In this document: positions 5,747 through 48,276 of the stretch, piece by piece | Layout of the letters: every line of letters begins with the position of its first letter | How positions within the stretch are numbered: the stretch's first letter is position 1 | Assembly (NCBI RefSeq): GCF_005771525.1 | Contig: NZ_VAVZ01000012.1 | Coordinates: forward strand, 24,520-72,795 | Source of the DNA: Nesterenkonia salmonea | GTDB lineage: Bacteria; Actinomycetota; Actinomycetes; Actinomycetales; Micrococcaceae | Direction of reading: 5' to 3' | Length of the DNA: 48,276 bases | Translations under genes and position numbers: made by a program | Notes under the pieces: generated by a model | Told to the model about the DNA's origin: nothing | Database searches by the model: none | The model's input: the letters and a program-made list of their open reading frames with translations, nothing else

Positions 5747-5817
5747 GCTGCTAACCCTAGATTGAGCATATTTCAGCAGTATTGACTACGTGTACACAGT
5801 CCATGTCGATCCCCGGC
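5747..5817 (-). promoter_or_regulatory. Leader between urate oxidase and allantoinase with GTGTACAC palindrome
   Basis: This AT-richer 71-base gap interrupts an otherwise overlapping gene block, so allantoinase may have its own promoter. It contains the perfect palindrome GTGTACAC at 5790-5797, the type of core seen in GntR/FadR-family operators. No convincing -35/-10 pair stands out. Assignment to any regulator is a guess. Confidence 0.3.
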
Positions 5818-6726: not shown

Positions 6727-6738
6727 AGTGGGTCTCCT

Positions 6739-10466: not shown

Positions 10467-10470
10467 GCTA

Positions 10471-10488
10471 CTGAAACAATTGTTTCAG
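10471..10488. promoter_or_regulatory. Perfect 18-bp palindromic operator upstream of pucG
   Basis: CTGAAACAATTGTTTCAG is a perfect dyad just before the pucG start, in the only gap of the distal purine genes. It resembles the TGAAAC/GTTTCA arms described for several RpiR-family operators, and an RpiR regulator is encoded three genes downstream. With its centre about 15 bases from the pucG ATG it would sit on or near the transcription start. Confidence 0.7.
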
Positions 10489-10491
10489 CTA

Positions 10492-10507
10492 TGAAACAAG
10501 CGTTTAG
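10492..10507. promoter_or_regulatory. Second, imperfect copy of the pucG operator
   Basis: TGAAACAAGCGTTTAG repeats the same arms (TGAAAC-N4-GTTTag) with its centre 19 bases from the first palindrome, about two helical turns, so both could face the same side of the DNA. It overlaps the uraD stop codon. Confidence 0.55.
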
Positions 10508-11004
10508 TCGGTCACCGCGTCCTCGAGTCGCAACAGAGCAATCTCTGCGAGCTGCTCGCGGCGTACTTGGGCCTCAGTGGCGGCGTCGTTATTCAACCGT
10601 TGACGCAGTTGAGCCATCATGTCCTCGCGGCTGCGCCCCTTGGCGCGGATGAGGAAGATACGGTCGAAGGTGCGCTCATAGTCTTGGTTCGCTGCCACCC
10701 ATTCCTCGCGGGCTGCGGCGTCTTCGCCCAGAGCGGCCTGCTCTGCCCGGGATGCTCTTGCCTCAGCAGAGTCGCCTTTTGCGCGCTCACCTATCCGGGG
10801 GTGGTGTGCCAGAGCGCCGTCGACCTCTTTGTCTGTCCAGTCCTGCGTCAACGACGATGCCATCTGCAGCAGGTCCTGGCGCGAGGAGTAGGGGCGTCTG
10901 GCCAGCAGCGCTGCGCTCCAAGAATTGATGGGTGCGCAGGAGGCGATGAGTTCTTTCACGGCTGCGGTCTGGTGAGTGTTGAAGTCCTTAAGGGTGATAC
11001 TCAT
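10504..11004 (-). CDS. uraD: OHCU decarboxylase
   Basis: Converts 2-oxo-4-hydroxy-4-carboxy-5-ureidoimidazoline to S-allantoin, third step of the uricase route. It has 166 residues, the normal length. The family's catalytic His lies in HHPRIGE (about residues 67-73), followed by SRAEQAAL and the long conserved helix NQDYERTFDRIFLIRAKGRS. The ATG overlaps the upstream amidase stop by four bases. The stop codon lies inside the second pucG operator copy, which may mark the end of one transcript and the start of another. Confidence 0.93.
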   Translation of the reverse strand: MSITLKDFNTHQTAAVKELIASCAPINSWSAALLARRPYSSRQDLLQMASSLTQDWTDKEVDGALAHHPRIGERAKGDSAEARASRAEQAALGEDAAAREEWVAANQDYERTFDRIFLIRAKGRSREDMMAQLRQRLNNDAATEAQVRREQLAEIALLRLEDAVTD

Positions 11005-28897: not shown

Positions 28898-28919
28898 TTA
28901 CTGACCGATTGGTCTGTAA
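28898..28919. promoter_or_regulatory. PaaR operator 1 (paaI promoter)
   Basis: TTACTGACC-GATT-GGTCTGTAA is a dyad with eight of nine arm pairs matching. Near-copies precede paaA (31581) and lie between paaZ and the 2-oxoacid dehydrogenase (44287). TetR-type PaaR is encoded two genes downstream. Confidence 0.78.
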
Positions 28920-28946
28920 TTGTCAGTCGTGACACCAGGAGCACCT

Positions 28947-29423
28947 ATGCCCGACACTGAAACGACCACACCCGCTGCCCCTGAGGGTGTGGCCATGCCA
29001 CCGGGCAGCCCGCATCACATCATGCTCGAGACCGACCGGTGCACCCGCTGGCTCGGTGCTGAAGTTCTCACAGCCAACGAGGGCCACGCCAAACTCCAGA
29101 TGACCATCCGTCCGGAGATGACCAATGGGTTCGATATCGTCCACGGCGGCATGATCTTCACTCTCGCTGACACGTGTTTTGCCATGGCATGCAATCACCC
29201 CGAAGGCGATGAAGGCACAGTCACCGTGGCCTCGGGCGCTGACATTACATTTCTCCAGACCGCCCGAGTCGGCGACACGTTGATCGCCGAATCACACCGA
29301 GTCGCCCAAGCCGGCAGAAGTGGTGTCTACGACGTTGTGGTGACTCGCGATGGCGCGACTGTCGCCGTATTCCGGGGTCGCTCCCGAACCATTCCGTTCT
29401 CCCGAGAAGGTGGATCACGATGA
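28947..29423 (+). CDS. paaI: Hydroxyphenylacetyl-CoA thioesterase
   Basis: Hot-dog thioesterase (158 residues) that rescues CoA from dead-end intermediates of phenylacetate breakdown. Asn60, His67 and Asp75 lie in NGFDIVHGGMIFTLADTCFA, the PaaI active-site block. ASGADITFLQTARVGDTL is also typical. ATG 28947 has AGGAG six bases upstream; the open frame's GTG-like extension overlaps the operator and is not used. The stop overlaps the paaK ATG by four bases. Confidence 0.93.
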   Translation: MPDTETTTPAAPEGVAMPPGSPHHIMLETDRCTRWLGAEVLTANEGHAKLQMTIRPEMTNGFDIVHGGMIFTLADTCFAMACNHPEGDEGTVTVASGADITFLQTARVGDTLIAESHRVAQAGRSGVYDVVVTRDGATVAVFRGRSRTIPFSREGGSR

Positions 29424-30811
29424 GTATCGCCAGTGCACCAGAAGTGCCCAACACGCCAGCCGACGCATCAGCAGCCAACGCAGTAGCCGCGGCCATCGCC
29501 TCCACCGACCCGGGCACCACCGCGCCGGGAGAGGCTGATGCCGAGGAGCGCCTCAGCCGCGAAGAGGTCGAACGGCTACAGCTGACCCGGTTGAAAGCTA
29601 CGATCAAGCACGCCTATGACAACATTGCCGCATATCGGGAGCTCTACGATGCCCATGGCGTAAAACCATCCGATCTGCAGACTCTCGAGGATCTGGCCAA
29701 GTTTCCGTTGACCGACAAAGAGTTCCTCCGCAACGCATACCCGTTCAAGTCTTTCGCTGTGCCCATGAGCCAAGTCCGCCGGATTCACGCCTCGTCCGGG
29801 ACAACGGGGAAGCCCACCGTTGTGGGCTATACAGAGGGAGACATTGACCGGTGGGCCTCCCTGCTCGCCCGCAGCCTACGATTCTCCGGCGTCAAGCCAG
29901 GGGACATCGTTCACAATGCCTACGGCTATGGCCTATTCACAGGCGGACTGGGTGCTCACTACGGCATTGAGAAGCTTGGCTGCACTGTCATCCCCATGTC
30001 AGGTGGGCAGACGGAGAAGCAGATTCAGCTGATCCAGGACTTCAAACCCCGAGTCATCCTGTGCACCCCCACCTACCTTTTGGCGCTCGCTGATGCCTTC
30101 CGGAGCAAAGGACTGGACCCGCGCGAGACCTCCCTGGAGATCGGTGTGCTCGGTGCCGAACCCTGGACCGAAAAGATGCGCCATGAGATCGAATCCGCAT
30201 TCGGCATTGCTGCCTGCGATATCTATGGCCTCTCTGAAGTCATGGGCCCAGGGGTTGCAGGTGAGTCCCAGAATCGCCAAGACGGCTCCACGATATGGGA
30301 AGACCATTTTCGGCCCGAGATCATCGACCCCATGACTGAAGATGTCCTGCCGTCGGGTCACCACGGAGAACTGGTCTTCACGACTCTGACCAAAGAAGCC
30401 CTCCCAGTCATTCGTTACCGCACTCACGATCTCACTCGGCTCGCCCCGGGTACCGACCGCCCGGGACACCGCAGGATGGGACGCATCACTGGACGCAGCG
30501 ACGATATGATCATTCTTCGCGGAGTCAACCTCTTCCCCACCCAGATCGAGGAGATAGCGCTCAGCATTCGGGGCCTCTCCCCTCACTTCCAGCTTGAGCT
30601 CACCCGTCCTGACACCATGGACCAGATGACCGTCCATATTGAAAGGCGGCCGGAGATCGGCCGGGACGAGGCAGAGGCGGCAGGCGCAGAACTTGCCCAG
30701 CAGATCAAGGTCAAGGTTGGGTCCAGCTGCCAGGTCACGGTCGCTGAACCAGAGACTCTTGCCAGGTCCTCGGGGAAGCTGCGGCGAATCTATGACAGAC
30801 GCCCGCGATGA
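29420..30811 (+). CDS. paaK: Phenylacetate--CoA ligase
   Basis: Activates phenylacetate to phenylacetyl-CoA, the entry step of the aerobic Paa pathway. It has 463 residues. The nucleotide-binding SSGTTGKP lies at 125-132. PaaK-typical blocks follow: NAYGYGLFTGGLGAHYG, CTPTYLLALAD, YGLSEVMGPGVA, and YRTHDLTRL with GRITGRSDDMIILRGVNLFPTQIEE. An Ala/Thr-rich N-terminal extension of about 40 residues looks disordered. Translationally coupled to paaI; paaR follows 65 bases later. Confidence 0.95.
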   Translation: MSIASAPEVPNTPADASAANAVAAAIASTDPGTTAPGEADAEERLSREEVERLQLTRLKATIKHAYDNIAAYRELYDAHGVKPSDLQTLEDLAKFPLTDKEFLRNAYPFKSFAVPMSQVRRIHASSGTTGKPTVVGYTEGDIDRWASLLARSLRFSGVKPGDIVHNAYGYGLFTGGLGAHYGIEKLGCTVIPMSGGQTEKQIQLIQDFKPRVILCTPTYLLALADAFRSKGLDPRETSLEIGVLGAEPWTEKMRHEIESAFGIAACDIYGLSEVMGPGVAGESQNRQDGSTIWEDHFRPEIIDPMTEDVLPSGHHGELVFTTLTKEALPVIRYRTHDLTRLAPGTDRPGHRRMGRITGRSDDMIILRGVNLFPTQIEEIALSIRGLSPHFQLELTRPDTMDQMTVHIERRPEIGRDEAEAAGAELAQQIKVKVGSSCQVTVAEPETLARSSGKLRRIYDRRPR

Positions 30812-30876: not shown

Positions 30877-31527
30877 ATGTCACCGGACCAACTTCCCCAG
30901 GCGACACCCGCTGCACCCCTGGGCCGTGCGCGAACCTCAGCCAAGCGGGGCCGCCCCGGCTATGACCGCGAGACCCTGCTGCGGGTCTGCGTCGAAGTCT
31001 TCAACCACCGTGGCTATGAGGCGACGTCGATGGGTGTCTTGGCAGAGGAGCTCGGTATCTCCAAGTCCGCGATTTACCACCATGTGAAATCCAAAGAGGA
31101 AATCCTCGACGCCGCCCTCAGCCACTCCCTGACAGAGTTGGAGGGAGTAGTCGCTGACGCTGAGGCCCTGAAGGCCCCTGCCGTGGTGGAACTGGAAACC
31201 ATCATCCGGGAATCCATCAACGTCCTGACCCGGTCGCTGCCGCATGTGACACTGCTGCTGAGGCTGCGCGGGAACTCCGAAGTCGAAACCGCTGCCCTCT
31301 TCAGACGACGCGAAATCACCCGACGTATCGCGGCACTGATCGCTCAAGCCCAGACCGATGGTGATCTGCGCAGCGACATTGACGCCCGGACCGCCTCCAG
31401 GCTGGCGATGGGTATGGTCAATTCGATCGTGGACTGGTACCGGCCTGAGCGCGCTGAATCCTCAGCCCCGGTGACGGACACCGTGGTCAACCTGCTCATG
31501 GGCGGACTGCGCACCACCTTCCGATAG
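30877..31527 (+). CDS. paaR: TetR-family repressor PaaR
   Basis: A 216-residue TetR protein. The helix-turn-helix is in YEATSMGVLAEELGISKSAIYHHVKSKEEILDAAL (about 50-84), after the conserved RETLLRVCVEVFNHRGY. A basic N-terminal tail (RARTSAKRGRPG) precedes it. The TetR family controls paa genes in actinobacteria and Thermus, usually released by phenylacetyl-CoA. It lies between paaK and paaA, with no operator of its own in the 65-base gap before it, so it is probably autoregulated through operator 1. Three matching palindromes in the window are the predicted targets. Confidence 0.88.
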   Translation: MSPDQLPQATPAAPLGRARTSAKRGRPGYDRETLLRVCVEVFNHRGYEATSMGVLAEELGISKSAIYHHVKSKEEILDAALSHSLTELEGVVADAEALKAPAVVELETIIRESINVLTRSLPHVTLLLRLRGNSEVETAALFRRREITRRIAALIAQAQTDGDLRSDIDARTASRLAMGMVNSIVDWYRPERAESSAPVTDTVVNLLMGGLRTTFR

Positions 31528-31555: not shown

Positions 31556-31585
31556 TTGTAGGTCACACCTATACTGGTATATACT
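31556..31585 (+). promoter_or_regulatory. Predicted paaA promoter
   Basis: TTGTAG (31556-31561), an 18-base spacer and TATACT (31580-31585) precede paaA. The -10 box runs into PaaR operator 2. A second TATACT at 31570 is an alternative. Confidence 0.45.
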
Positions 31586-31602
31586 GAACGAACGGTCAGT
31601 AA
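31581..31602. promoter_or_regulatory. PaaR operator 2 (paaA promoter)
   Basis: ATACTGAAC-GAAC-GGTCAGTAA, seven of nine arm pairs matching, lies just before the strong paaA ribosome site (GGAGG at 31607). It belongs to the same family as the sites at 28898 and 44287. Confidence 0.75.
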
Positions 31603-31618: not shown

Positions 31619-32653
31619 ATGTCCCCAGAGAAGCCAGCCCTTCGAGCAGTCGACTCCCCGAGTGAGACGACCACACACGAAGCGCAAGCAGCTGCAGAAG
31701 ATGCCCGAGTGGGCTGGGAACAGTTCCAGCAGCTCATCGAAGAGGATCAGCGCGTCGAACCTCGGGATTGGATGCCACAGAACTACCGCAAAACACTGGT
31801 GCGCCAGATCTCCCAGCACGCACATTCCGAGATCATCGGAATGCAGCCAGAGGGCAACTGGATCTCGCGAGCCCCGTCACTGAAGCGGAAGTCAGTCCTC
31901 ATGGCCAAGGTGCAGGATGAGGCAGGCCACGGGCTCTACCTCTACTCTGCGGCTGAAACGCTAGGTACCTCTCGCGATGAGATGTATCAGCAGCTGTACA
32001 CCGGAAAAGCTAAGTACTCCTCCATTTTCAACTACCCCGCCCGCACATGGGCCGATGTTGGCGCTGTGGGCTGGCTTGTCGACGGCGCCGCCATCACCAA
32101 TCAAGTGCCCCTGTGCCGGGCTTCTTTCGGTCCGTACGGACGTGCCATGGTCCGAGTGTGCAAGGAAGAGTCGTTCCACCAAAGGCAGGGGTGGGAGATT
32201 CTCTACACCCTCTCGCACGGAACAGAAGCGCAGAAGCAGATGGCACAAGATGCCGTAGACCGCTTCTACGGCCCCGCGCTTCAGATGTTTGGACCTCCAG
32301 ATGATGAGTCGCCAAACTCTCAGCAGTCCATGGCATGGAACATCAAACGTTTCTCCAACGATGTCCTGCGCCAGCGCTTCGTCGACATGATCGTGCCACA
32401 GGCTGAGGCGCTGGGGCTCACGCTGCCTGACCCGGACTTGAAGTGGAATGAGGAGCGTGGTCACTACGACTACGGAGACCTTGACTGGGACGAGTTCTTC
32501 AGCGTGGTCAAAGGCAACGGGCCTCTGAACCATCAGCGCCTTGCTCATTACCGAGCAGCGCGCGACGACGGCGCCTGGGTCCGCGAAGCAGCCGCAGCCT
32601 ATGCAGCCAAACAGGCAGAAGCATCCCCTCGAAGTGCCCTGCTCAGCGCCTAG
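31619..32653 (+). CDS. paaA: 1,2-phenylacetyl-CoA epoxidase, catalytic subunit
   Basis: Di-iron oxygenase subunit (344 residues) that adds one O2 oxygen to the ring of phenylacetyl-CoA. The ferritin-like iron ligands are visible as [11 protein letters not shown] (about 99-109) and [11 protein letters not shown] (about 182-192). The family stretch [21 protein letters not shown] binds substrate near the PaaC interface. A strong GGAGG precedes the ATG, behind PaaR operator 2. First gene of paaABCDE. Confidence 0.96.
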
Positions 32654-32693
32654 ACCCCACTTCACGTCTTCTTCGGCAAGAAAGGCCCGCATC

Positions 32694-33050
32694 ATGGCAG
32701 AGACTGACCCCCACGCGCCCGCAGACCAGATCCCAGACGGCGGCGTGGTCACCGAGGACCCCGCAGATCACAGCGTATGGCCACTTTGGGAGGTCTTCGT
32801 CAGATCCTCACGGGGCCTGTCGCATGTGCACGCAGGTTCTCTGCACGCACCTGACCCTGCCATGGCCCTGCGCAATGCACGGGACCTCTATACCCGGCGC
32901 AATGAAGGAACATCTATCTGGGTCGTCCCAGCAGCAGAGATCACAGCTTCCGACCCAGACTCAAAGGGTGGGTACTTCGAATCCTCCAAAGGCAAGTCCT
33001 ACCGCCACGCCACTTACTACACACAGTCCGAGGGGGTACCGCACTTATGA
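32694..33050 (+). CDS. paaB: 1,2-phenylacetyl-CoA epoxidase subunit
   Basis: Small structural subunit (118 residues) that bridges PaaA-PaaC dimers. Family marks are WPLWEVFVRSSRGLSHVHAGSLHAPD and ARDLYTRRNEGTSIWVVP. ATG 32694, 40 bases after paaA, has AAAGG about ten bases upstream; the longer open frame lies inside paaA. The stop overlaps paaC by four bases. An N-terminal acidic, proline-rich tail of about 25 residues is extra compared with short homologues. Confidence 0.94.
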   Translation: MAETDPHAPADQIPDGGVVTEDPADHSVWPLWEVFVRSSRGLSHVHAGSLHAPDPAMALRNARDLYTRRNEGTSIWVVPAAEITASDPDSKGGYFESSKGKSYRHATYYTQSEGVPHL

Positions 33051-33892
33051 GTCACTCTGGTGGTTTTACTTCACAGGACTCAGCCACAAAGATCTCGGTC
33101 GGCGATGCCATCACCCCCGAAGATGTGAGCGCAAGCAGCGCAGTCGCCTCTGATGAGACCGCCCGCTACGCACTGTTGTTGGGCGATGACTGTCTGATCC
33201 TCGCCCAGCGGTTGGGGCACTGGATCTCCCGCGCCCCCGAGCTCGAAGAGGACATCGCGCTGGGGAACATCGCCTTGGACCTTCTCGGCCACGCACGATT
33301 TTTCCTCACCTACGCTGGTTCCGCCTGGGGCAAGACCGAAGACGATTTGGCGTATTTTCGCTCAGAGGAAGAGTTCCGTTCCTGCCGTCTCGTCGAGCAG
33401 GAGAACGGTGACTTCGGCCGGACGATCGCTCGCCAACTGCTGTTCAGTTTCTACACTCATGAGCTCTACCAGCGACTGGTGAGGTCAGCGGATACAACAC
33501 TCGCCGCCATTGCCGATAAGGCTTTGAAGGAAGTTGACTACCATCAGGACCACGCAGCCCAGTGGCTGTTGCGACTCGGTGGGGGCACAGATGAGTCCAA
33601 ACGGCGAATGCAGGAAGGGCTCGAGTCCGTGTGGCCCTATCTGGAGGAACTCTTCGCCGACGTGGAGCCGACCCCCACACTGGCCGAGCAAGAGGTGGCC
33701 GTGCTGCCTTCATCATTGCGCGACGCCGTCCTCACACGACTGAGCTCGATCATCGAAGAATCCGGGTTGGAAGTACCTGCGTCAAAAGGTGCCTTCGGAG
33801 CTGACCGGTCCGGCCGGTTCTCGGAGAACCGCGGTTTCATTCTGGCCGAAATGCAGGTTCTCGCCCGCCAACACCCCGGCGCCACATGGTAG
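33047..33892 (+). CDS. paaC: 1,2-phenylacetyl-CoA epoxidase, structural subunit
   Basis: Ferritin-fold partner of PaaA (281 residues) without a complete iron site, needed for the stable epoxidase complex. Family blocks are YALLLGDDCLILAQRLGHW, EEDIALGNIALDLLGHARFFL and KALKEVDYHQDHAAQWLLRLGGGTDES. The last segment matches the PaaC helix that in PaaA would carry ligands. It starts inside the paaB stop and ends 14 bases before paaD. Confidence 0.94.
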   Translation: MSHSGGFTSQDSATKISVGDAITPEDVSASSAVASDETARYALLLGDDCLILAQRLGHWISRAPELEEDIALGNIALDLLGHARFFLTYAGSAWGKTEDDLAYFRSEEEFRSCRLVEQENGDFGRTIARQLLFSFYTHELYQRLVRSADTTLAAIADKALKEVDYHQDHAAQWLLRLGGGTDESKRRMQEGLESVWPYLEELFADVEPTPTLAEQEVAVLPSSLRDAVLTRLSSIIEESGLEVPASKGAFGADRSGRFSENRGFILAEMQVLARQHPGATW

Positions 33893-33906
33893 GCGGTAGG
33901 ACACCC

Positions 33907-34443
33907 ATGAGCACTGTCGAACACCGGCCCCTCACACCCAACGGCATAAGGCCCGAAGAACCTGCCGACGCCGCGGTGTGGGATGCCGCCGCGCAGGTGA
34001 CAGATCCGGAGATTCCTGTCCTGACCATTGCGGATCTCGGTATCCTCAGGGCTGCAGGGGCAACACCGGAGGGCGGCGTCGTCGTCATCACTCCCACCTA
34101 CTCAGGATGTCCCGCCATGGACACCATCACCGCTGATGTCACGGCCGCTCTCCGTGAGGCTGGATATGGAACGGCGCGAGTGGACACCGTACTCACCCCG
34201 TCCTGGACCACCGACTGGATGACAGAGGACGGCAAACGCAAACTGCGTGAATACGGCATCACTCCCCCGTCAGGCAACGCACCAGCCCGCGGCGGCCCGG
34301 TGCGGGTGGGGCTGAGTGTGAAGTGTCCGCGCTGCGATTCGCTGGACACTAAGGAACTTGCCCGTTTCGGCTCTACTGCGTGCAAGGCGCTCTACCAGTG
34401 CCAGACCTGCCTAGAGCCCTTCGACTATTTCAAGGTGCTGTGA
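33907..34443 (+). CDS. paaD: Phenylacetate epoxidase assembly protein
   Basis: DUF59/MIP18-type protein (178 residues) implicated in iron-sulfur or di-iron assembly of the Paa epoxidase. The N-terminal domain has VTDPEIPVLTIADLGILR and TPTYSGCPAMDTI with the conserved Cys. The C-terminus is the PaaD zinc-ribbon: CPRC, then AC and CQTC near the end. ATG 33907 is preferred to 33886 because AGGA lies seven bases before it and it avoids overlap with paaC. The TGA shares a base with the paaE ATG. Confidence 0.93.
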   Translation: MSTVEHRPLTPNGIRPEEPADAAVWDAAAQVTDPEIPVLTIADLGILRAAGATPEGGVVVITPTYSGCPAMDTITADVTAALREAGYGTARVDTVLTPSWTTDWMTEDGKRKLREYGITPPSGNAPARGGPVRVGLSVKCPRCDSLDTKELARFGSTACKALYQCQTCLEPFDYFKVL

Positions 34444-35621
34444 TGACACTCAAAAGCCCCACCACCGAGGCTGGACCATCAGCGCGTCGGCGCGCCACCT
34501 TCTCCCCGCTTCGCGTGAAGGAAGTTCGCCGACTCACCGCTGATTCAGTGGAGGTCTCTTTCGAGGTTCCCGAGCACCTCGTGGAGGACTTCGACTATGC
34601 CCCTGGCCAGTACGTCGCGCTGCGCACAGAGATCGAGGGCAAGGAAGTCCGCCGCTCATATTCGATCTGCACCGAGCCTGTTCCAGGGGAAATCAGAGTC
34701 GCGGTCAAGCGCGACATCGGCGGAGTGTTCTCCACATGGGCCAATGAGCAGTTGAAACCCGGCGACACTCTCGATGTCATGAACCCTGCCGGGGCTTTCA
34801 TCTCCAAAACCGCACTGACCTCCATGAACCGGCCTGAGGAACTCGCCGAGGAGACCATCGCTCGTCATACAGGTGCCCGCCTCGTCGCCTTCGCCGCTGG
34901 CTCCGGTATCACTCCGATTATGGCGATTGCGCGGTCAGTTCTGAGCGCATCCCCTGATACGAGCTTTGAGCTGGTCTACGCGAACAGGTCAGCGGCTGAT
35001 GTCATGTTCGCTGAAGAGCTCGGCGATATGAAGGATCGCTACCCGTCCCGGTTTGTTGTGCATCATGTTCTGTCACGGGAGCAGCGGTTGAATCCACTGT
35101 TGACTGGGCGGATCGATGCAGAAAAGCTGACTGCGCTACTCGACCACGTACTTCCCACAGAAAATGCTGATGAGTGGTTTCTCTGTGGACCGTTCGAACT
35201 GGTGCAACTGGTGAGGGATGAGCTCGACTCCCGGGACGTCCCAGCAGAGAAGGTACGGTTCGAACTCTTCACCACTGGCCGTCCTGATCGACCCGCGGGC
35301 CAACAGGGCAGACGCGTTGCCGAGGACCAGGCGGGCCCAACACGGCGCATCGAATTCACGCTCGACGGATTGACCGGTCAAGTGGACTCCCCGGCCAGTT
35401 CTGGGGAGACCGTGCTCAACGCAGCGCTGCGTCAACGCTCCGATGTTCCGTTCGCTTGCGCAGGCGGTGTCTGCGGCACATGCCGGGCCAAAGTGATCTC
35501 CGGTGACTTTGAGATGGAGGAGAACTACGCGTTGGAAGCTGATGAGGTCGAACGTGGTTTCGTCCTGACCTGCCAGACCAGACCCACCTCAGACCATTTG
35601 GTGGTCGACTACGACGCATGA
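34443..35621 (+). CDS. paaE: 1,2-phenylacetyl-CoA epoxidase reductase
   Basis: Electron carrier from NADPH to PaaA (392 residues). The FAD motif RRSYSICTEP is near 74-83, the NAD(P) motif AAGSGITPIMAIARS near 148-162 and the C-terminal CGPF. The plant-type 2Fe-2S domain at the end shows ACAGGVCGTCRAK followed by VLTCQT (C-x4-C-x2-C...C). The start ATG overlaps the paaD stop by one base; the upstream open frame is paaD shadow. Last of the coupled paaABCDE set. Confidence 0.95.
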   Translation: MTLKSPTTEAGPSARRRATFSPLRVKEVRRLTADSVEVSFEVPEHLVEDFDYAPGQYVALRTEIEGKEVRRSYSICTEPVPGEIRVAVKRDIGGVFSTWANEQLKPGDTLDVMNPAGAFISKTALTSMNRPEELAEETIARHTGARLVAFAAGSGITPIMAIARSVLSASPDTSFELVYANRSAADVMFAEELGDMKDRYPSRFVVHHVLSREQRLNPLLTGRIDAEKLTALLDHVLPTENADEWFLCGPFELVQLVRDELDSRDVPAEKVRFELFTTGRPDRPAGQQGRRVAEDQAGPTRRIEFTLDGLTGQVDSPASSGETVLNAALRQRSDVPFACAGGVCGTCRAKVISGDFEMEENYALEADEVERGFVLTCQTRPTSDHLVVDYDA

Positions 35622-39510: not shown

Positions 39511-39536
39511 AAGAGGTCCTTTCACAAGAGCGGGTG

Positions 39537-40955: not shown

Positions 40956-41129
40956 CAACCAATTCCTTCCATCAGTGATCTGGATTACTTCTTCAGCGTG
41001 CCGGAGACTTGAAGTTCTGGGTTGGCACGGGGTGCACAATGCTGTGCTCCAGATGCACTGATGTGGCGCTCATCACACAAAATGCGATGATGGACACCCA
41101 GAGAAAACTTCAGGTCAGGAGCAGCGCGA

Positions 41130-42095
41130 ATGGGGACAGAGGCAGTCACGTCCACGGGATTCACCAGCACCTCCCTAGATGCTGCAGAGCAGTTCGATGC
41201 GTGGCAGAACGCCGTCAACTCCGCTTTCGTACCCTTGGAGGCTGCGCATCAGAACACTGGCGGGTTCGATGGGTACCTGCGTGGTCAGCCATTGGGACTG
41301 CTCAGCATCACCGAAGTCGGTGGAGATCCAGTGCACGTCAGGAGGAGCCGACGCAGTATCTCAGCTGGCAATCCCGGCGTATACAAGTTCGCCCTTCAGC
41401 GGTCAGGTGAGTGCCTGGTCCGCCAGGATCAGCAGCAGGCACTCCTCCTCCCCGGTGACCTCGTCATTTACGACACCACAAAACCGTACGACCTATCATT
41501 CAAAGGCCCGTACGGCATGTTCGTGGTCCAGATTCCCCATGAATCCATGGGACTCAGCGACGGCCAGGCCGCATCGCTGGTGGCCCAGAGAATCCCCGGC
41601 AGCACCGGGCTCGGAGCACTTACCTCATCACTGCTTACCAGCCTGAGCCAGCAGCTTGAGCGCGAGGAGATGGCCCCCGATCCCCGTGCAGCAGCCGCAG
41701 TGCTTCAGCTTGTGCAGGCCACCCTCCTAGCCCGCCTCCGACCCGAGCCACAAGTGCCCACCCGGGACGTGGTGTACCTGGAAGCGGTGAGCTACATCGA
41801 CAAGCGCCTGAAGGATCCACACCTGTCCGTCTCGGCAGTGGCCCAGGCACTTCACGTCTCAACACGCTACTTACAGGCCGTGTTCGCCGACGAGGGAACG
41901 ACTGTCAGTGAGTGGATCCGAAAGCGTCGACTCGAGCACTGCCGTCAAGAACTCAGCAACACTCACAACCAGTCGCGATCAGTCAGCTCGATCGCCGCTC
42001 AATGGGGATATCGCGACGCCTCAAGCTTCACTCGATCCTTCAGAAGCACATTCGGAGAGACCCCGACCGACTACCGCCGCCGAGTGCACCGCTGA
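41130..42095 (+). CDS. AraC-family regulator with FeaR-type ligand domain
   Basis: A 321-residue activator-type protein. The N-terminal ~180 residues look like the AraC-like ligand-binding domain of FeaR-type proteins (AEQFDAWQNAVNSAFVPLE; LLPGDLVIYDTTKPYDLSFKGPYGMFVVQIP). The C-terminal 100 carry two helix-turn-helices (LSVSAVAQALHVSTRYLQAVFADEG and SSIAAQWGYRDASSFTRSFRSTFGETPTDYRR). AGGAG lies eight bases before the ATG. It is divergent from the aldehyde dehydrogenase and probably controls it. FeaR of E. coli turns on aromatic amine to phenylacetate conversion, which fits the surrounding paa genes. Confidence 0.87.
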   Translation: MGTEAVTSTGFTSTSLDAAEQFDAWQNAVNSAFVPLEAAHQNTGGFDGYLRGQPLGLLSITEVGGDPVHVRRSRRSISAGNPGVYKFALQRSGECLVRQDQQQALLLPGDLVIYDTTKPYDLSFKGPYGMFVVQIPHESMGLSDGQAASLVAQRIPGSTGLGALTSSLLTSLSQQLEREEMAPDPRAAAAVLQLVQATLLARLRPEPQVPTRDVVYLEAVSYIDKRLKDPHLSVSAVAQALHVSTRYLQAVFADEGTTVSEWIRKRRLEHCRQELSNTHNQSRSVSSIAAQWGYRDASSFTRSFRSTFGETPTDYRRRVHR

Positions 42096-42109: not shown

Positions 42110-44233
42110 TCACTGCGCCCAATCCGGCATGCGTTTCGCCACACGGGTGAGCACATCGTAGGTGGCGACGATCTCTTCGTGCTGATTGTGCAGCACAGTG
42201 TCCCAACGGACCTCTCCATAGTCGTCCGTCTCACGGGGCGTGATCTGCTTAGCGGTCAAGGTCACCCGGATCGAGTCCCCATAGGTGACAGGCGTCAGGA
42301 AGCTGAGGTTCTCCAGACCTGTGTTCGCCAATACCGGACCAGGCGCCGGGTCAACAAAGAGCCCCGCGGCCCAGGAGACCAATAGGTAGCCATGCGCAAC
42401 GCGCCGAGGAAAGAACGGATTGGCGGTAGCAGCTTCCTCGTTCGTGTGCGCATAGAACGTGTCACCGGTGGACTGAGCGAAGGCATCGATGTCTTCCAGG
42501 CGGACTTCGCGCAGCCCTGAGACGAACTGGTCACCGATGCGCAGCTCGGCAAGAGACTTCCGGAACGGATGCCGAGCGCTTCCGTCTGCAACAGCCTCAG
42601 GAGTCACTGACTGAGCCGTGGCGCCACGGTGCCAGACCCCGGTGATACCGGTGAGGAGGTCAGGTGTTCCCTGGATAGCGGTGCGCTGCATGTGGTGCTT
42701 GACCCCGCGCATACCGCCAAGTTCTTCACCTCCTCCAGCGCGGCCGGGGCCGCCGTGAACAAGGTGGGGCAGCGGCGAACCATGTCCGGTTGAGGTCTTG
42801 GCATCATCGCGGTCCAGCAGGTGCACCCGCCCATGATGAGAGCCGATGCCCCGCACAAACTCTGCAGCGGTCTGGGGATCATGAGTGCACACCGTCGCCA
42901 CCAGGGATCCTCCGCCGAGGGCAGCGAGGGCCACGGCGTCGTCAATATCGGTGTAGCCCAGAACTGAGGTGACAGGCCCGAAAGCTTCCACCTGGTGCAC
43001 CTCAGGGGTCCGGGCATTGGAGAACTTCAGTGTGGTCACCGGATAGAACGCGCCCGTTTCGGCATTGGCGCGGCCAGTGGAGGCATCCGGCCCGCCGAAG
43101 CACACCTCGCCGCCGGCATCAACGAGTCGCTGCACCGCTTGGGAGACCTCGGCCTGCTGATCTTTCGACGCCAAAGCCCCCACTGTGGTGTCCGCGTCAC
43201 GGGGATCACCCAGGACAGCGCGGGCTTCAACCCGCTGGCGCAGGGCATCAACCACTGCGTCGACGTGTTCACTCGGGACGATAGTGCGCCGGATCGCGGT
43301 GCACTTCTGCCCGGCCTTGACTGTCATCTCTTGAACCACAGCTTTGATGAACGCCTCAAACTCGGCAGTCCCCGGCACAGCGTCAGGCGCCAGAATCGCG
43401 GAGTTCAACGAATCCGTCTCTGCGGTGAAGCGCACACCCTCATACTGAACATTCGGATGCGCGCGCAGCATATGAGCGGTCGCGGCTGATCCGGTGAAAG
43501 CCACATGGTCGCGGTAGTCCAGGTGATCGAGAAGGTCACGGGCCGAACCGGAGATCAGTTGGAGTGAGCCTTCCGGCAGCAGCCCAGATTCCACCATGAG
43601 CCGGACACAGGCCTCTGTGACGTAGGCGGTCTGGCTTGCGGGTTTCACAATGGTGGGTACTCCGGCAATGAAACTTGGGGCGAGCTTCTCCAGCATTCCC
43701 CACACGGGGAAATTGAACGCGTTAATCTGAACGGCCGCTCCGGTGAGCCGAGTGTAGATGTGCTCGCCGATGAAGCTGCCATCGCGGGACAACTGTTCGA
43801 CGCCACCGTCGATGATGACATTGGAGTTGGGGAGCTCTTTGCGGGCCTTCGACGAATACGCGAACAGAGTGCCGATACCGCCGTCGACGTCCACCAGATG
43901 ATCCTTGCGAGTGGCGCCGGTCTTATCAGAGAGCTCATAGAGCAGTTCCTTGTGCTCACCCAAGTGCAGCGCAAGCTGCTTCAGCCGCAAGGCACGCTGG
44001 TGGAAGGTCAATTGCCCCAGAGCCGCCTGGCCCACGCTGCGGGCATAGTCGACAGCTCGGGACGTCTCCAAGCCATCTGTGGAGACCCGGCAGACCAACG
44101 CGTCCGTGGCGGCGTCGTGGATTTCGGCAATCTTTTGGGGATTGGCCGGGGCCCACCAGTCACCTGCGATAAAGCTCGGCAAGATTCTCTCGGGTGCGTG
44201 TCCGGGTGTTGCTTCGGCAGTCTCGACGGTCAT
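42110..44233 (-). CDS. paaZ: Oxepin-CoA hydrolase / 3-oxo-5,6-dehydrosuberyl-CoA semialdehyde dehydrogenase
   Basis: Bifunctional ring-opening enzyme (707 residues). Residues 1 to about 530 are an aldehyde dehydrogenase with INAFNFPVWGMLEK, the catalytic Cys in VKAGQKCTAIRR and a Glu in RFTAETDSLNSAIL. The C-terminal ~150 residues are a MaoC/hot-dog hydratase with Asp in STGDTFYAHTNEEAA and His in FPRRVAHGYLL. The PaaZ-specific HGGPGRAGGGEELGGMRGVKHHMQRTAIQG links them. ATG 44233 has GAGGA about six bases upstream and is preferred to the earlier GTG. It is divergent from the 2-oxoacid dehydrogenase across PaaR operator 3. Confidence 0.95.
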   Translation of the reverse strand: MTVETAEATPGHAPERILPSFIAGDWWAPANPQKIAEIHDAATDALVCRVSTDGLETSRAVDYARSVGQAALGQLTFHQRALRLKQLALHLGEHKELLYELSDKTGATRKDHLVDVDGGIGTLFAYSSKARKELPNSNVIIDGGVEQLSRDGSFIGEHIYTRLTGAAVQINAFNFPVWGMLEKLAPSFIAGVPTIVKPASQTAYVTEACVRLMVESGLLPEGSLQLISGSARDLLDHLDYRDHVAFTGSAATAHMLRAHPNVQYEGVRFTAETDSLNSAILAPDAVPGTAEFEAFIKAVVQEMTVKAGQKCTAIRRTIVPSEHVDAVVDALRQRVEARAVLGDPRDADTTVGALASKDQQAEVSQAVQRLVDAGGEVCFGGPDASTGRANAETGAFYPVTTLKFSNARTPEVHQVEAFGPVTSVLGYTDIDDAVALAALGGGSLVATVCTHDPQTAAEFVRGIGSHHGRVHLLDRDDAKTSTGHGSPLPHLVHGGPGRAGGGEELGGMRGVKHHMQRTAIQGTPDLLTGITGVWHRGATAQSVTPEAVADGSARHPFRKSLAELRIGDQFVSGLREVRLEDIDAFAQSTGDTFYAHTNEEAATANPFFPRRVAHGYLLVSWAAGLFVDPAPGPVLANTGLENLSFLTPVTYGDSIRVTLTAKQITPRETDDYGEVRWDTVLHNQHEEIVATYDVLTRVAKRMPDWAQ

Positions 44234-44286
44234 CAGCGTCCTCAATTCCACGGTTGGATTGCGGTTTTTTGATTGGCCGAAAACTG

Positions 44287-44308
44287 TTACCGACCAATCG
44301 GTCAGTAT
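44287..44308. promoter_or_regulatory. PaaR operator 3 (paaZ / 2-oxoacid dehydrogenase)
   Basis: On minus the site reads ATACTGACC-GATT-GGTCGGTAA, with the same 13-base core as operator 1. It lies between two divergent starts (paaZ ATG 44233, E1 alpha ATG 44381). A candidate plus promoter is TTACCG (44287) - 17 - TACGAT (44310), overlapping the operator. Confidence 0.77.
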
Positions 44309-44380
44309 TTACGATACACTAGCGTGACAGGTATCACACATGGCGTGCGCCACTTCCGCATCCATCCAGAGAGGGTGATC

Positions 44381-45592
44381 ATGGACGATCCCAAAACGAC
44401 ACCGGAGCCTGGCCACGAAAAAGCAGAGCAGGCTTCCAGAATTTTTGAGGCAAGCCGCAGCTTCGGCATTACTCCAGAGCAATATATGCTGCCCGCTCAG
44501 CAGCAAATCCGCATGCTCGATGCACAGGGCACACTTGTCCCCGTCGAGCAGCAGGGCACCGGGCCGGGACATGAGTACCCGATCCCTGAGGACGAGGTGC
44601 TGCTGAAGGCCTACGCCGCCCTGGTGGCCGGCCGGCGCATCAACGACCAGAACTATGCCCTGGTCCGGCAGGGCAGGCTGGCGGTCTACCCTTCTTCCCA
44701 CGGGCAGGAGGCCTGCCAAGTAGGCGCGGCGCTGTGTCTGGAACCGGGCGACTGGATGTTCCCCACCTACCGGGACACTGTCTCGGTTATTTCACGCGGT
44801 GTCGATCCGCTGGAGGTCATGGTCTCCTTCCGCGGTGACTGGCACTGCGGATACGACCCCAAAGAACACCGTGTGGGTGCGATGTCCACCCCACTGACCA
44901 CCCAGCTGCTGCACGCGGTGGGAGTCGCCCATGCCGCCAAACTGCGAGGCGAAGACTCCGTAGTCCTAGCCATGTGCGGGGATGGCGCCACCAGCGAAGG
45001 CGACTTCCACGAGGCGCTGAACTTCGCTGCGGTGTTCGAGGTCCCCGTGGTCTTCTTTGTGCAGAACAACGGCTACGCCATCTCGGTTCCGCTCTCCAGC
45101 CAGTCCGCGGCCCCTTCACTGGCGCATAAGGCCATCGGCTATGGGCTCGCCGGGGAGCAGGTGGACGGCAATGACATGGTCGCCGTCCTCGCGACCCTGC
45201 GGCGCGCGGTGCACCTGGCGCGTGAAAACTCGATGCCCCTGCTGGTGGAAGCTGTCACCTACCGCATGCAGGCTCACACCAACGCTGATGATGAGACTCG
45301 CTACCGGGATCGTGAAGAGGTTGAGCAGTGGAAACGCAAGGACCCACTGCTGCGGATGCAGACCTTCCTCACCAGTGAAGGGATCCTCGACGACGACGCC
45401 GCGGGCCGCATCACTGACGCAGCAGAGAAGGTTGCCAGCTCACTGCGCCAGGCAATGACCGCTGAACCGGCAGAGAACCCGTTGGAGATCTTTGACCACG
45501 TCTACACCGCACCCACCGCGCAACTGTTGGCCCAACGGGCACAGCTCGACGACGAACTCCAGCGCGCCACAACCACTGAAGGGGCCCAGTGA
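44381..45592 (+). CDS. bkdA: 2-oxoacid dehydrogenase E1 alpha (branched-chain type)
   Basis: Thiamine-diphosphate subunit (403 residues) that decarboxylates a 2-oxoacid. The ThDP motif is MCGDGATSEGDFHEALNFAAVFEVPVVFFVQNN (about 203-235). Upstream, YPSSHGQEACQVGAA and FPTYRDTVSVISRGVDP match branched-chain rather than pyruvate enzymes, and the phosphorylation-loop area HTNADDETRYR is typical. ATG 44381 has GAGG just upstream. It lies 70 bases past PaaR operator 3. The usual substrates are the 2-oxoacids of Val, Leu and Ile; phenylpyruvate is proposed because of the regulon. Confidence 0.92.
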   Translation: MDDPKTTPEPGHEKAEQASRIFEASRSFGITPEQYMLPAQQQIRMLDAQGTLVPVEQQGTGPGHEYPIPEDEVLLKAYAALVAGRRINDQNYALVRQGRLAVYPSSHGQEACQVGAALCLEPGDWMFPTYRDTVSVISRGVDPLEVMVSFRGDWHCGYDPKEHRVGAMSTPLTTQLLHAVGVAHAAKLRGEDSVVLAMCGDGATSEGDFHEALNFAAVFEVPVVFFVQNNGYAISVPLSSQSAAPSLAHKAIGYGLAGEQVDGNDMVAVLATLRRAVHLARENSMPLLVEAVTYRMQAHTNADDETRYRDREEVEQWKRKDPLLRMQTFLTSEGILDDDAAGRITDAAEKVASSLRQAMTAEPAENPLEIFDHVYTAPTAQLLAQRAQLDDELQRATTTEGAQ

Positions 45593-46626
45593 TGAGCACC
45601 ATAACTGCCACCAGCACTACCACCTTCGCCTCCGCGCTGAACACCGCAATGTCCGATGCCATGGAGGCCGATGAATCTGTGGTGGTCTTCGGTGAAGATG
45701 TCGGCACCCTGGGTGGTGTCTTCCGGATTACCGATGGGTTGACCAAACGCTTTGGAGCCAACCGGTGCTTCGACACTCCCCTGGCCGAATCGGGAATTGC
45801 CGGAACAGCCGTGGGAATGGCGATCAACGGCATGCGCCCAGTGATCGAAATGCAGTTCGACGCCTTTGCCTTCCCCGCCCTGGAACAGATCTTCAGCCAT
45901 ATCGCGAAGATGGCGAACCGGACCCGCGGCCGCGTCCGGTTACCGATCGTCATCCGCATCCCCTACGGCGGCGGCGTCGGGGGCGTTGAACATCACTGTG
46001 ACTCTTCAGAGGCCTACTACGCCCACACCGCAGGCCTGAAAGTCTTCACCCCCGCCACTGCTGCTGATGCCTATCTGATGCTTCGTGAAGCCATCGACAC
46101 TGACGATCCGGTGGTGTTCTTCGAACCGAAGAAACTCTACTGGTCCAAGGCACCCGAAGATCTTTCCACACTCCGGCAGACGTATGAATCCGATAGTGCA
46201 CACTCCCGGCAGATCGGCGCCCAGGGCCAAGCCGTCGTCGTACGTGAAGGAACTGACGTGTCGATTATTTCCTACGGTCCCTCAGTAGCAACGGCTGTGA
46301 AAGCTGCTGAAGCGGCCGCCGAAGACGGGATCAGCGCCGAGGTCCTGGATATGCGCAGCCTGGTCCCGTTCGATGAGGCTGGGTTGATCCGCACCGTGGA
46401 AAAGACCGGACGCGCCGTCGTAGTGGCAGAGGCCCAGGGATTCGTGTCCGTGGCCAGTGAAATCACTGCCCGCATACAAGAGCGGTGCTTCCACTCCTTG
46501 GCGTCTCCCGTACTTCGCGTCACAGGTTTCGACATTCCCTATCCGGCCCCGAAATTGGAAGAACACCATCTGCCGGATGTGGATCGCATCCTTGACGCTC
46601 TCGACGAGATGCAGTGGGAGGACTGA
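45592..46626 (+). CDS. bkdB: 2-oxoacid dehydrogenase E1 beta
   Basis: Partner of E1 alpha (344 residues), completing the ThDP site. Family blocks are VVVFGEDVGTLGGVFRITDGL, FDTPLAESGIAGTAVGMAINGMRPVIEMQF (with the ThDP-contacting Glu) and RIPYGGGVGGVEHHCDSSEAYYAHTAGLKV. The ATG shares a base with the E1 alpha stop (TGATG); an in-frame GTG one codon earlier is less likely. Followed by E2 after one base. Confidence 0.93.
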   Translation: MSTITATSTTTFASALNTAMSDAMEADESVVVFGEDVGTLGGVFRITDGLTKRFGANRCFDTPLAESGIAGTAVGMAINGMRPVIEMQFDAFAFPALEQIFSHIAKMANRTRGRVRLPIVIRIPYGGGVGGVEHHCDSSEAYYAHTAGLKVFTPATAADAYLMLREAIDTDDPVVFFEPKKLYWSKAPEDLSTLRQTYESDSAHSRQIGAQGQAVVVREGTDVSIISYGPSVATAVKAAEAAAEDGISAEVLDMRSLVPFDEAGLIRTVEKTGRAVVVAEAQGFVSVASEITARIQERCFHSLASPVLRVTGFDIPYPAPKLEEHHLPDVDRILDALDEMQWED

Positions 46627-46627
46627 G

Positions 46628-48022
46628 ATGACCACGTTTAATCTTCCCGATTTGGGCGAAGGCCTCACTGAGGCGACACTGCTCAGCTGGCTCGTTTCCG
46701 AGGGTGACGCTGTGCAAGTCGACCAAGCAATCGCGGAGGTGGAGACCGCGAAGTCCGCGATCGAAGTCCCCTCCCCCTACGCCGGCACGGTGCACACACT
46801 CCATGGAGAAGCCGGCGAAACGCTTGAAGTCGGCAAGCCGTTGATTACCGTCAGTACAGGCGACGACACCACCAACGGCAAGCAGGCGCAGGATTCCGAC
46901 GCCGGCGCGTTGTCCTACCGTGAAGAGGAACGCGCTGGAACCAGGGCGCCGCATTCTGCTGACTCCGATGAAGGCTCCGGCAATGTGCTCATCGGCTACG
47001 GCACCGCGGCAAGCAAGAACGGTCGCAGACGCCGTCGAAAGCACTCCGGCGGATCATCAGCTGAGCGGAGTACCGCTGCCGGGGAAAAGACTAGAGCTCC
47101 ACGGGTGTCGTCTCCACTGGTGCGCAAAATGGCACGCCAGCACGGAGTCGATCTCCGCTCACTGGTCGGATCGGGGCCCGATGGTCTCATCATGCGCCGT
47201 GACGTCCTCTCCGCCACCGATCAAACCACCGCACCTCAGCCGAGAAGTGCAGCCGAATCACCACAGGGAGGATCCTCTGCTGCGGGGGCTCAGGGCGCAA
47301 GCCATGATTCGCTGACCGGGCTCGGCATTAGGGAGCGCGTCCCCATGACTGGGATGCGACGCGCCATCGCGACCAAGATGTCCCAGTCGAGGACAGAGAT
47401 CCCCGAGGCTACCGTGTGGCAGGACGTCGACGTCACACAACTGGTGGGGATGCGGCAGCAGCTCAAGGAGGCCGGCCATGTGGCTCCTTCCATTTTGGCT
47501 TTCCTCAGTAGGTTCGTTGTCGAAGGGTTGAAGAAGTATCCAGCACTGAACTCACGCATCGTTGACGCCGGCGGGTCCGAGGAGATCGTGCATTTTGATG
47601 GCATCAACTTGGGATTCGCGGCGCAGACAGATGGTGGGTTGGTCGTTCCCGTGATTCGGCATGCCGAAAAGCATTCGGCGCAGGGCCTGAACAGCGAGAT
47701 CCGCCGTCTTGCCGAGGCCGCCCGTGCCGGCACCATCGGAGGCAAGGACCTCTCCGGCGGAACCTTCACGGTCAACAACTACGGGGTGTTCGGATCTGAC
47801 GGGGCAACCCCAATCATCAACCACCCTGAGGCTGCGATCCTCGGCATCGGCCGGACTCTGGACCGCCCGTGGGTCGTCGATGGGGAGATTGCCGTCCGCA
47901 AGATCACTACCGTGACACTCGCGTTCGACCACCGGGTCTGCGACGGCGGTGCCGCAGGCGGCTTCCTCGGTTATGTGGCCAGCTGCCTGGAGAATCCTGC
48001 TGTGGCCCTAGCCGACTTCTAA
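46628..48022 (+). CDS. bkdC: 2-oxoacid dehydrogenase E2 (dihydrolipoyl acyltransferase)
   Basis: Core of the complex (464 residues). There is one lipoyl domain with Lys42 in VETAKSAIEVPSPYAG and a flexible Ser/Gly/Arg-rich linker (about 90-160). The E1/E3-binding domain is SSPLVRKMARQHGVDLRSLVGSGPDGLIMRRDV. The catalytic domain ends with FDHRVCDGG, the HxxxDG motif. No E3 (lipoamide dehydrogenase) follows, so a shared housekeeping E3 must serve. The 14-base gap to the thiolase holds AAAGGAG, so they are one transcript. Confidence 0.93.
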   Translation: MTTFNLPDLGEGLTEATLLSWLVSEGDAVQVDQAIAEVETAKSAIEVPSPYAGTVHTLHGEAGETLEVGKPLITVSTGDDTTNGKQAQDSDAGALSYREEERAGTRAPHSADSDEGSGNVLIGYGTAASKNGRRRRRKHSGGSSAERSTAAGEKTRAPRVSSPLVRKMARQHGVDLRSLVGSGPDGLIMRRDVLSATDQTTAPQPRSAAESPQGGSSAAGAQGASHDSLTGLGIRERVPMTGMRRAIATKMSQSRTEIPEATVWQDVDVTQLVGMRQQLKEAGHVAPSILAFLSRFVVEGLKKYPALNSRIVDAGGSEEIVHFDGINLGFAAQTDGGLVVPVIRHAEKHSAQGLNSEIRRLAEAARAGTIGGKDLSGGTFTVNNYGVFGSDGATPIINHPEAAILGIGRTLDRPWVVDGEIAVRKITTVTLAFDHRVCDGGAAGGFLGYVASCLENPAVALADF

Positions 48023-48036
48023 AGGAGAACAACACA

Positions 48037-48234
48037 GTGACTGACGCATTTCTCGTATCCGGAACCCGCACACCGGTGGGCAGATACGGTGGAGCCCTCT
48101 CTGCAGTACGTCCCGATGACCTCGCCGCCCTCGTGATCCGCCAGGTAGTGGAAGAGTCAAGGGTGCCATCGGCTGAGGTTGATGAGGTGATCTTCGGCAG
48201 CGCGAACGGGGTCAAGTCCCGTGTAGTGGTGTAG
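48037..48234 (+). pseudogene. paaJ: paaJ thiolase, truncated after 57 codons
   Basis: The N-terminus of the Paa beta-ketoadipyl-CoA thiolase. VSGTRTPVGRYGGALSAVRPDDLAALVIR closely follows E. coli PaaJ, and DEVIFGSAN matches the segment where the family continues with QAGEDNRNVAR. Here the frame instead reads GVKSRVVV and stops at 48234. GTG 48037 has AAAGGAG nine bases upstream. The loss of homology at 48207 coincides with sequence resembling an insertion-sequence end. The remainder of the gene may lie beyond the window; as it stands the product would lack the catalytic Cys and His. Confidence 0.75.
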
Positions 48235-48276
48235 CTGGCCCTGTTGTTCTTCGAGGCTTTCGTTGGTCAGCCAGGG
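48208..48276. mobile_element. Possible insertion-sequence end interrupting paaJ
   Basis: From 48208 the sequence has no link to thiolase. It starts GGGGTCAAGTCCCGTGTAG, recalling the AAGTCCGTATAATTGTGTA-type termini of IS256-family elements. Only 69 bases are inside the window, with no transposase or second end visible, so family and orientation are tentative. Confidence 0.45.

Follow-up and report, generated by a model that had tools for sequence, protein, structure and literature searches.

A 2-oxoacid dehydrogenase operon in the phenylacetate gene cluster of Nesterenkonia salmonea as a probable phenylpyruvate dehydrogenase complex

Phenylpyruvate is known to reach phenylacetyl-coenzyme A (phenylacetyl-CoA) by the successive action of phenylpyruvate decarboxylase, phenylacetaldehyde dehydrogenase and the ligase PaaK. 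2-Oxoacid:ferredoxin oxidoreductases of the IorAB type also turn arylpyruvates into aryl-acetyl-CoA, as ferredoxin-dependent iron-sulphur enzymes of a different make-up. Here we analyze the E1alpha, E1beta and E2 genes of a 2-oxoacid dehydrogenase in a 48,276-nucleotide stretch of Nesterenkonia salmonea DNA (the window), which is the terminal part of contig C24 (72,795 bases); contig and window stop together at 48276. As judged from sequence comparison, these genes probably encode a dedicated phenylpyruvate dehydrogenase complex. Phenylpyruvate had been proposed as its substrate in an earlier note on this DNA, and the proposal gains support from the co-occurrence of the complex with paaA and its lack of association with a valine marker, from aminotransferase, PaaN and PaaR-like neighbors, and from a linked prephenate dehydratase in Frankiaceae. 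In contrast to the decarboxylase-PaaK route, which has the same start and end, the complex would perform a single CoA-forming oxidative decarboxylation and save the ATP spent by PaaK.

The closest precedent is PglB/PglC of Streptomyces pristinaespiralis, for which conversion of phenylpyruvate to phenylacetyl-CoA was suggested within the synthesis of L-phenylglycine for pristinamycin (PMC7089894). The passages cited describe PglB/PglC as a pyruvate-dehydrogenase-like alpha/beta pair with the same proposed reaction. Its genes form an operon with pglA, pglD and pglE behind a non-ribosomal peptide synthetase gene and have a biosynthetic role, whereas the neighbors in the window are paa genes. In a literature search judged by titles and the beginnings of abstracts, with subscription journals mostly outside its coverage, the PglB/PglC paper was the only one found on a lipoate-type phenylpyruvate dehydrogenase or on paa clusters containing one. 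The string 'phenylpyruv' is absent from the main text of a phenylacetate pathway survey dated 2026 (PMC13186573).

BkdA1/A2/B (structures 1um9, 2bp7 and 1dtw) share the E1alpha/E1beta/E2 domain make-up of the window complex, but the window E1alpha falls into a clade of its own and has genomic ties to phenylacetate and phenylpyruvate genes. For the regulator PaaR, the printed operators are ACCGACCGGTCGGTT (Burkholderia cenocepacia; PMC9493321), CNAACGNNCGTTNG (Thermus; PMC9493321) and AACGA-N4-TCGGT (Streptomyces pristinaespiralis; PMC10933834), and the window palindromes resemble them. As in the window, the PaaR regulons of Burkholderia cenocepacia, Thermus thermophilus, Streptomyces pristinaespiralis and Corynebacterium glutamicum have, in the passages cited, a TetR-type gene in the cluster and similar palindromes before paa units. 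The spacing of the Burkholderia site is unlike that of the window palindromes, and one of the latter fronts a 2-oxoacid dehydrogenase, a target unnamed in the passages of PMC9493321 and PMC10933834.

The E1-E2 genes, their distribution and their paralogues

The operon and the genes on either side are as follows.
44381..45592, + strand: E1alpha, 2-oxoacid dehydrogenase subunit (ATG 44381; PF00676, E1_dh, 255.8 bits; TIGR03181, 411.6 bits)
45592..46626, + strand: E1beta (ATG 45592; PF02779, Transket_pyr; PF02780, Transketolase_C)
46628..48022, + strand: E2 acyltransferase (ATG 46628; one lipoyl domain, PF00364; E3-binding domain, PF02817; acyltransferase domain, PF00198)
42110..44233, - strand: paaZ (TIGR02278, 1023 bits, cut-off 562.8; ATG 44233), divergent from E1alpha, operator in common
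48037..48276, + strand: start of paaJ (thiolase), same operon; in-frame stop at 48232-48234, 42 bases short of the contig end

The domains and motifs of E1alpha, E1beta and E2 are complete, including the thiamine diphosphate (ThDP) motif GDG..NN in E1alpha and, in E2, the lipoyl site ETAKSA and the active-site motif HxxxDG, retained as HRVCDG. The genes are thus predicted to encode a 2-oxoacid dehydrogenase complex with an E1 of the alpha2beta2 type. The window E1alpha is 97% identical to that of N. haasae. The gene calls and the 14-base junction between E2 and paaJ, which contains AAGGAG resembling a ribosome-binding site, bear out the layout described in the earlier note, divergent from paaZ and running into paaJ. 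Its statement that no E3 is encoded here also holds among the window genes scanned, the rest of the genome not having been searched for one. A full-length relative of paaJ (locus L011) is 3-oxoadipyl-CoA-thiolase-like by NCBIfam, under that family's cut-off; the region of the stop near the contig end (window 48037-48276) possibly holds an assembly repeat or a mobile element.

To follow the complex across relatives, 120 Micrococcaceae genomes of at least 90% completeness were drawn evenly. E1alpha orthologues were set at 58% identity or more and E values of at most 6.4e-131, with a clean gap to the next group (at most 48%, E at least 2.3e-84). PaaA was found in 111 of the 120 genomes and the E1alpha orthologue in 110, namely in 110 of the 111 with PaaA and in none of the nine without (Fisher p about 1e-12; this and the following p values ignore kinship). 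The nine PaaA-less genomes span five genera, and four of these (g3, g6, g26 and g27) also include PaaA genomes. E1alpha and PaaA lie on one contig in 92 of 110 genomes, 75 times within 20 kb and 13 times more than 40 kb apart, and on different contigs in 18. Among the five g6 genomes with both genes, the distance is 9 kb in one and 499 kb in another, with different contigs in the remaining three, while a further g6 genome (G117) has neither gene; in g27 the genes lie 640 kb apart in G027 and both are missing from G054. Given this spacing, some of the joint absences do not have the look of a single deletion. The valine marker, the methylmalonate-semialdehyde dehydrogenase (MMSDH) of the window, was scored at 65% identity or more among the 12 best candidates per genome. 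Its orthologue occurs in 48 of 120 genomes, 45 of the 110 with E1alpha and 3 of the 10 without (p 0.74).

A wider sample comprised 148 genomes of the class, with E1alpha taken as the best match at 52% identity or more and E of at most 7.5e-111 (next genome, 48%). E1alpha was present in 42, PaaA in 71 and both in 34 (p 4e-7). Outside Frankiaceae (f19), PaaA accompanies E1alpha in 34 of 34 genomes, against 37 of 103 genomes lacking E1alpha. The two genes share a contig in 19 of the 34 genomes with both and lie within 20 kb in 10. Matches in family f7 (45-48% identity) were left uncounted; the two included in the tree fall outside the clade.

The neighborhoods point the same way. From 374 relatives found, we kept the best 80 loci (L numbers), and PaaA or PaaZ lies within the fetched flanks of 31 of these. 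In a census of 99 loci, which singles out gene clusters found in more than 16 loci, paa genes are the commonest neighbors after E1beta, E2 and an Lrp gene, with the crotonase/PaaG type in 30, each of PaaA, PaaC and PaaE in 27, PaaZ in 26, PaaJ in 22 and PaaH in 19. From mechanical lists of open reading frames, we relied solely on genes recovered by tblastn or family scans as well. A Streptomyces locus (L056) reads aminotransferase (NF002878 subfamily), PaaN (TIGR02288, below cut-off), Lrp, E1alpha, E1beta, E2, paaJ, paaF, paaH, paaA-E, and aminotransferases of the NF002878 kind are also near in L061, L070 and L084. In family f20, probably Streptomycetaceae, a PaaR-like gene stands beside Lrp-E1alpha in 12 of 13 loci; the thirteenth, a second copy in genome G224 (L180), has neither the PaaR-like gene nor Lrp. 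With the co-occurrence above and the linked prephenate dehydratase of Frankiaceae (see below), the complex has a genomic tie to phenylpyruvate formation or phenylacetyl-CoA use.

The N. salmonea genome also carries paralogues. A second E1-E2 operon elsewhere in the genome, for which the earlier note had called, was found on contig C50 (L006, 8118-12939), 12 bases behind an NF002878-type aminotransferase gene. The genome further has an AceE-type pyruvate dehydrogenase (1353.9 bits), and a 1310-amino-acid frame, probably 2-oxoglutarate dehydrogenase, gives the third E1_dh match. A tree with 121 rows separates, at full support, the E1alpha clade (100 rows) from 21 Micrococcaceae paralogues. Among 20 paralogue regions chosen, the aminotransferase is likewise adjacent in 6, an Lrp-like gene in 7 and neither in 7. 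The alpha residues V102-Y103 occur in 100 of 100 clade rows, while the paralogues have L-W in 21 of 21 as aligned, and beta A91/A93 likewise separate the clade from the paralogues. We take these residues to belong to the substrate pocket; V102 and A93 are smaller than the corresponding Thermus residues, and Frankiaceae E1alpha mostly carry the same alpha pair.

A PaaR-type palindrome and the exchange of the regulator

The predicted operators, the elements around that of E1alpha and the paa genes about 9 to 15 kb upstream of the E1-E2 operon are listed here.
44287..44308 (core 44289-44306), no strand: predicted PaaR-type operator palindrome of E1alpha/paaZ, 72 bases before the E1alpha ATG
44286..44338, + strand: 53-base block, palindrome plus TATTTACGATACACTAGCGTGACAGGTATCACA, identical in the window, L007, L008, L009, L039 and L044
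44315..44320, + strand: TACACT, probable -10 box for E1 transcription, from the conserved block
28900..28917, no strand: predicted PaaR-type operator before paaI-paaK, from the pattern scan
31583..31600, no strand: predicted PaaR-type operator before paaA, from the pattern scan
28920..29423, + strand: paaI-type thioesterase (PF03061; name from domain and position)
29420..30811, + strand: paaK, phenylacetate-CoA ligase (TIGR02155, 646.6 bits, cut-off 646.3)
30877..31527, + strand: paaR-type TetR regulator (PF00440, PF17932; name from domain and position; no NCBIfam family at 1e-20)
31619..35621, + strand: paaA to paaE, phenylacetyl-CoA epoxidase genes (PaaA, PaaC, PaaD and PaaE each above cut-off)

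The earlier note had seen a palindrome before E1alpha almost identical to those before paaI and paaA, and this stands at the 72-base spacing: in the better orientation of each, the E1alpha/paaZ palindrome agrees with the paaI site in 20 of 22 bases and with the paaA site in 18 of 22, and the three sites have pairwise 17-20 of 22 bases in common. A scan of the window at 3 mismatches gave 8 matches against a shuffled mean of 3.46, a number equaled in 11 of 100 shuffles and not significant alone. In the whole genome, the joint pattern has 7 matches when a single mismatch is allowed (backwards control, 4), three being the intergenic paaI, paaA and E1alpha sites, which include the only two exact matches. 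Because the pattern derives from these three sites, this enrichment is partly by construction. Independent support for the E1alpha palindrome comes from its position inside the 53-base block, which is identical in five further Nesterenkonia species; L010 and L011 lack it in that form. A chance palindrome was rejected on account of the same site and the identical block in relatives. A -35 element at the usual spacing from TACACT would fall inside the palindrome; in a consensus scan, no promoter passed the threshold. Sitting on the probable E1 promoter and shared with the paa units, the palindrome places the operon in the predicted PaaR regulon. That the valine genes of the window use a different operator, as also suggested earlier, stays unproven, since no convincing operator was found at them.

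Five loci (L007, L008, L009, L039 and L044) resemble the window in having a palindrome with at most two mismatches 92-95 bases ahead of the start of the E1alpha match. The sole further upstream match is in L052 (two mismatches, at -342), and the backwards control gave 3 matches in 1.57 Mb. Of the 80 loci, 74 have a divergent Lrp/AsnC-family gene no more than 900 bases upstream of E1alpha, with Pfam AsnC_trans_reg in both loci scanned. It is missing from the window and from six loci, the five with the palindrome and L086. In the latter (Actinoallomurus), a PaaR-like tblastn match lies about 1 kb upstream (around 9000), at the usual Lrp place, perhaps a second regulator swap. L010-L013 keep the Lrp gene, and paaJ there has its own palindrome (two mismatches); in L010 the palindrome is flanked by paaZ on one side and by the Lrp gene end on the other, and different sequence follows it. 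At the E2-paaJ junction of the five Lrp-less Nesterenkonia loci, no palindrome was found at up to 3 mismatches. The upstream palindrome, the lost Lrp gene and a paaJ without its own operator suggest that E1-E2 moved from its ancestral neighbor into a PaaR-type unit. Thus, in the window's clade (6 genomes), E1-E2-paaJ seems to have been captured by the phenylacetate regulon. In L007 the operon continues past paaJ with crotonase-like and 3-hydroxyacyl-CoA-dehydrogenase-like genes, called paaF and paaH from position; the latter fits its NCBIfam family below cut-off, and for the former no NCBIfam family was found at 1e-60.

Frankiaceae with E1alpha and without PaaA

All eight class genomes that have E1alpha and lack PaaA belong to Frankiaceae, and their sequences are nested in the E1alpha clade. 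Seven carry nifH above the curated cut-off, and these seven also have a prephenate dehydratase gene directly behind E2 on the same strand (tblastn, at least 77% identity). Prephenate dehydratase produces phenylpyruvate. The linked gene exceeds the Pfam PDT cut-off in all seven and that of NCBIfam NF008865 in the three scanned, and in six measured cases its alignment begins 35-132 bases past the stop codon of E2. There are exactly two prephenate dehydratase matches per genome in all seven, so the E2-linked gene is a second copy. Both nifH above the cut-off and the link are absent from the eighth genome (G213), and no Lrp gene was found at the f19 loci.

Two side observations concern this family. 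A nifH-bearing genome (G133, contig C7, locus L186, 2208-3107) has a second prephenate dehydratase without a clade E1-E2 beside it. A wax-ester-synthase/diacylglycerol-acyltransferase-like gene lies near E1-E2 in three of the eight loci (L163, 5604-7202; L164, 3340-4758; L161) and could esterify phenylacetyl-CoA; with only three of eight loci, this was not built on.

Genome G152 is presumably the Frankia alni strain of a published nodule study. FRAAL3226, annotated bkdC, is 8.14-fold up in those nodules (PMC8951365). Scaling the tag order by nifH (FRAAL6813, 7.42 Mb) puts FRAAL3226 at about 3.51 Mb, and among the five places with an E2 domain in G152 the one at 3.509 Mb alone agrees with this; FRAAL3226 is therefore probably the E2 of this clade. 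According to the passages cited, Frankia strains make phenylacetate in culture (PMC6773980), and a phenyl-acetate hopanetetrol occurs in the Frankia vesicle envelope (PMC4139986). Phenylacetate pathway genes of strain CcI3 were named earlier (Perrine-Walker 2010, as given in PMC6773980), and we do not claim the first naming of Frankia genes. We consider the chances evenly balanced that the clade is a phenylpyruvate dehydrogenase of Actinomycetota working in two directions, serving phenylalanine breakdown in most lineages and, in paaA-less Frankia, leading from prephenate to phenylacetyl-CoA for released phenylacetate (an auxin) and the vesicle hopanoid ester.

Alternative substrates, proposed mechanism and remaining genes

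Several observations weigh against a dedicated phenylpyruvate dehydrogenase. The co-occurrence in Micrococcaceae rests on few independent losses, in about five genera, and some of these may be single deletions because E1alpha and paa genes are often adjacent. One Micrococcaceae genome (G115) has paaA without an E1alpha orthologue, as do 37 of the 71 paaA genomes of the class, so the complex is not required for the paa pathway. Neither PaaA nor PaaZ (at 50% identity or more) was found in the fetched flanks of 49 of the 80 loci, some cut by contig ends, and the flanks of the second copies L180 (G224) and L181 (G202) contain no paa gene. Putative PaaR-type control of E1 was observed solely in the small clade of the window; elsewhere a divergent Lrp/AsnC gene mostly accompanies the operon. 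The pocket differences carry little weight because the pocket-lining residues are our own assignment. NCBIfam names E1alpha a pyruvate dehydrogenase subunit. In the nodule data, the rounded abundance of FRAAL3226 is 0.000, and the table passage gives no value for an E1 or dehydratase neighbor (PMC8951365).

An ordinary branched-chain 2-oxoacid dehydrogenase (BCKDH), serving valine, leucine and isoleucine breakdown or branched fatty-acid primers and placed in the paa cluster by chance, would accord with the E1_dh/BCKDH-like superfamily of E1alpha, with valine genes 21-25 kb off in the window and with the broad substrate ranges known for such complexes. It was rejected as first choice for want of association with the valine marker, the sole branched-chain marker in this test. 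Moreover, genomes G016 and G053 lack paaA and E1alpha yet keep the valine MMSDH and E1 paralogues, and N. salmonea itself has the second, aminotransferase-linked operon. We regard this explanation as unlikely. An aryl-2-oxoacid dehydrogenase of other or broader range (4-hydroxyphenylpyruvate, indolepyruvate), found with paa genes since phenylacetyl-CoA is one of its products, appears a shade less probable still. The genomic links point to aromatic metabolism, few of them tell aromatic side chains apart, and aromatic aminotransferases are often broad; against this, the prephenate dehydratase product is phenylpyruvate and not 4-hydroxyphenylpyruvate, and the substrate of PaaABCE is phenylacetyl-CoA. 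A pyruvate dehydrogenase complex is very improbable. Its one hint is TIGR03181, where E1alpha scores 0.25 bits above the cut-off (411.35) and its own paralogue 401.1 bits, whereas E1alpha is absent from all nine paaA-less relatives, unlike an only pyruvate dehydrogenase, and the presence of AceE in the same genome led to its rejection.

The genes, the conserved palindrome, the exchange of the regulator, the co-occurrence and the neighbors are direct observations. For the favored phenylpyruvate dehydrogenase, we infer the substrate, the relief of PaaR repression by phenylacetyl-CoA and the recruitment of a remotely encoded E3. An aminotransferase would convert phenylalanine to phenylpyruvate, which E1 would decarboxylate on ThDP, handing the phenylacetyl group to the lipoyl arm of E2. 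E2 would pass it on to CoA, and a shared housekeeping E3 would reoxidize the arm with NAD, yielding phenylacetyl-CoA, CO2 and NADH overall. The product would feed the epoxidase PaaABCE with phenylacetaldehyde, free phenylacetate and PaaK all bypassed, while free phenylacetate or phenylethylamine would still enter via PaaK. By releasing PaaR from its operators, phenylacetyl-CoA would make the complex an inducer of the pathway that consumes its product. If true, this would close the gap between phenylalanine and phenylacetyl-CoA in much of the Actinomycetota, explain the extra 'BCKDH' kept by such bacteria, correct routine annotations as 'pyruvate' or '2-oxoisovalerate dehydrogenase' and give an example of a catabolic operon passing from an Lrp-type to a product-sensing regulator. 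Should the Frankia part hold, it would offer testable genes for phenylacetate (auxin) formation in actinorhizal symbiosis.

Further genes in the window were noted. A malic enzyme gene inside the paa cluster (36732-37913) is retained in L007, L008 and L039. Between it and paaZ (37975-42095) lie genes for a GMC oxidoreductase, an aldehyde dehydrogenase with the phenylacetaldehyde dehydrogenase StyD among its best matches, below cut-off, and a FeaR-like AraC regulator. This set is present in L010, partly in L013 and was not found at this place in L007 and L008; it may offer another way into phenylacetate. Purine breakdown genes lie in the left part (39-12284), namely xanthine-dehydrogenase-like, urate oxidase, allantoinase and allantoate amidohydrolase.

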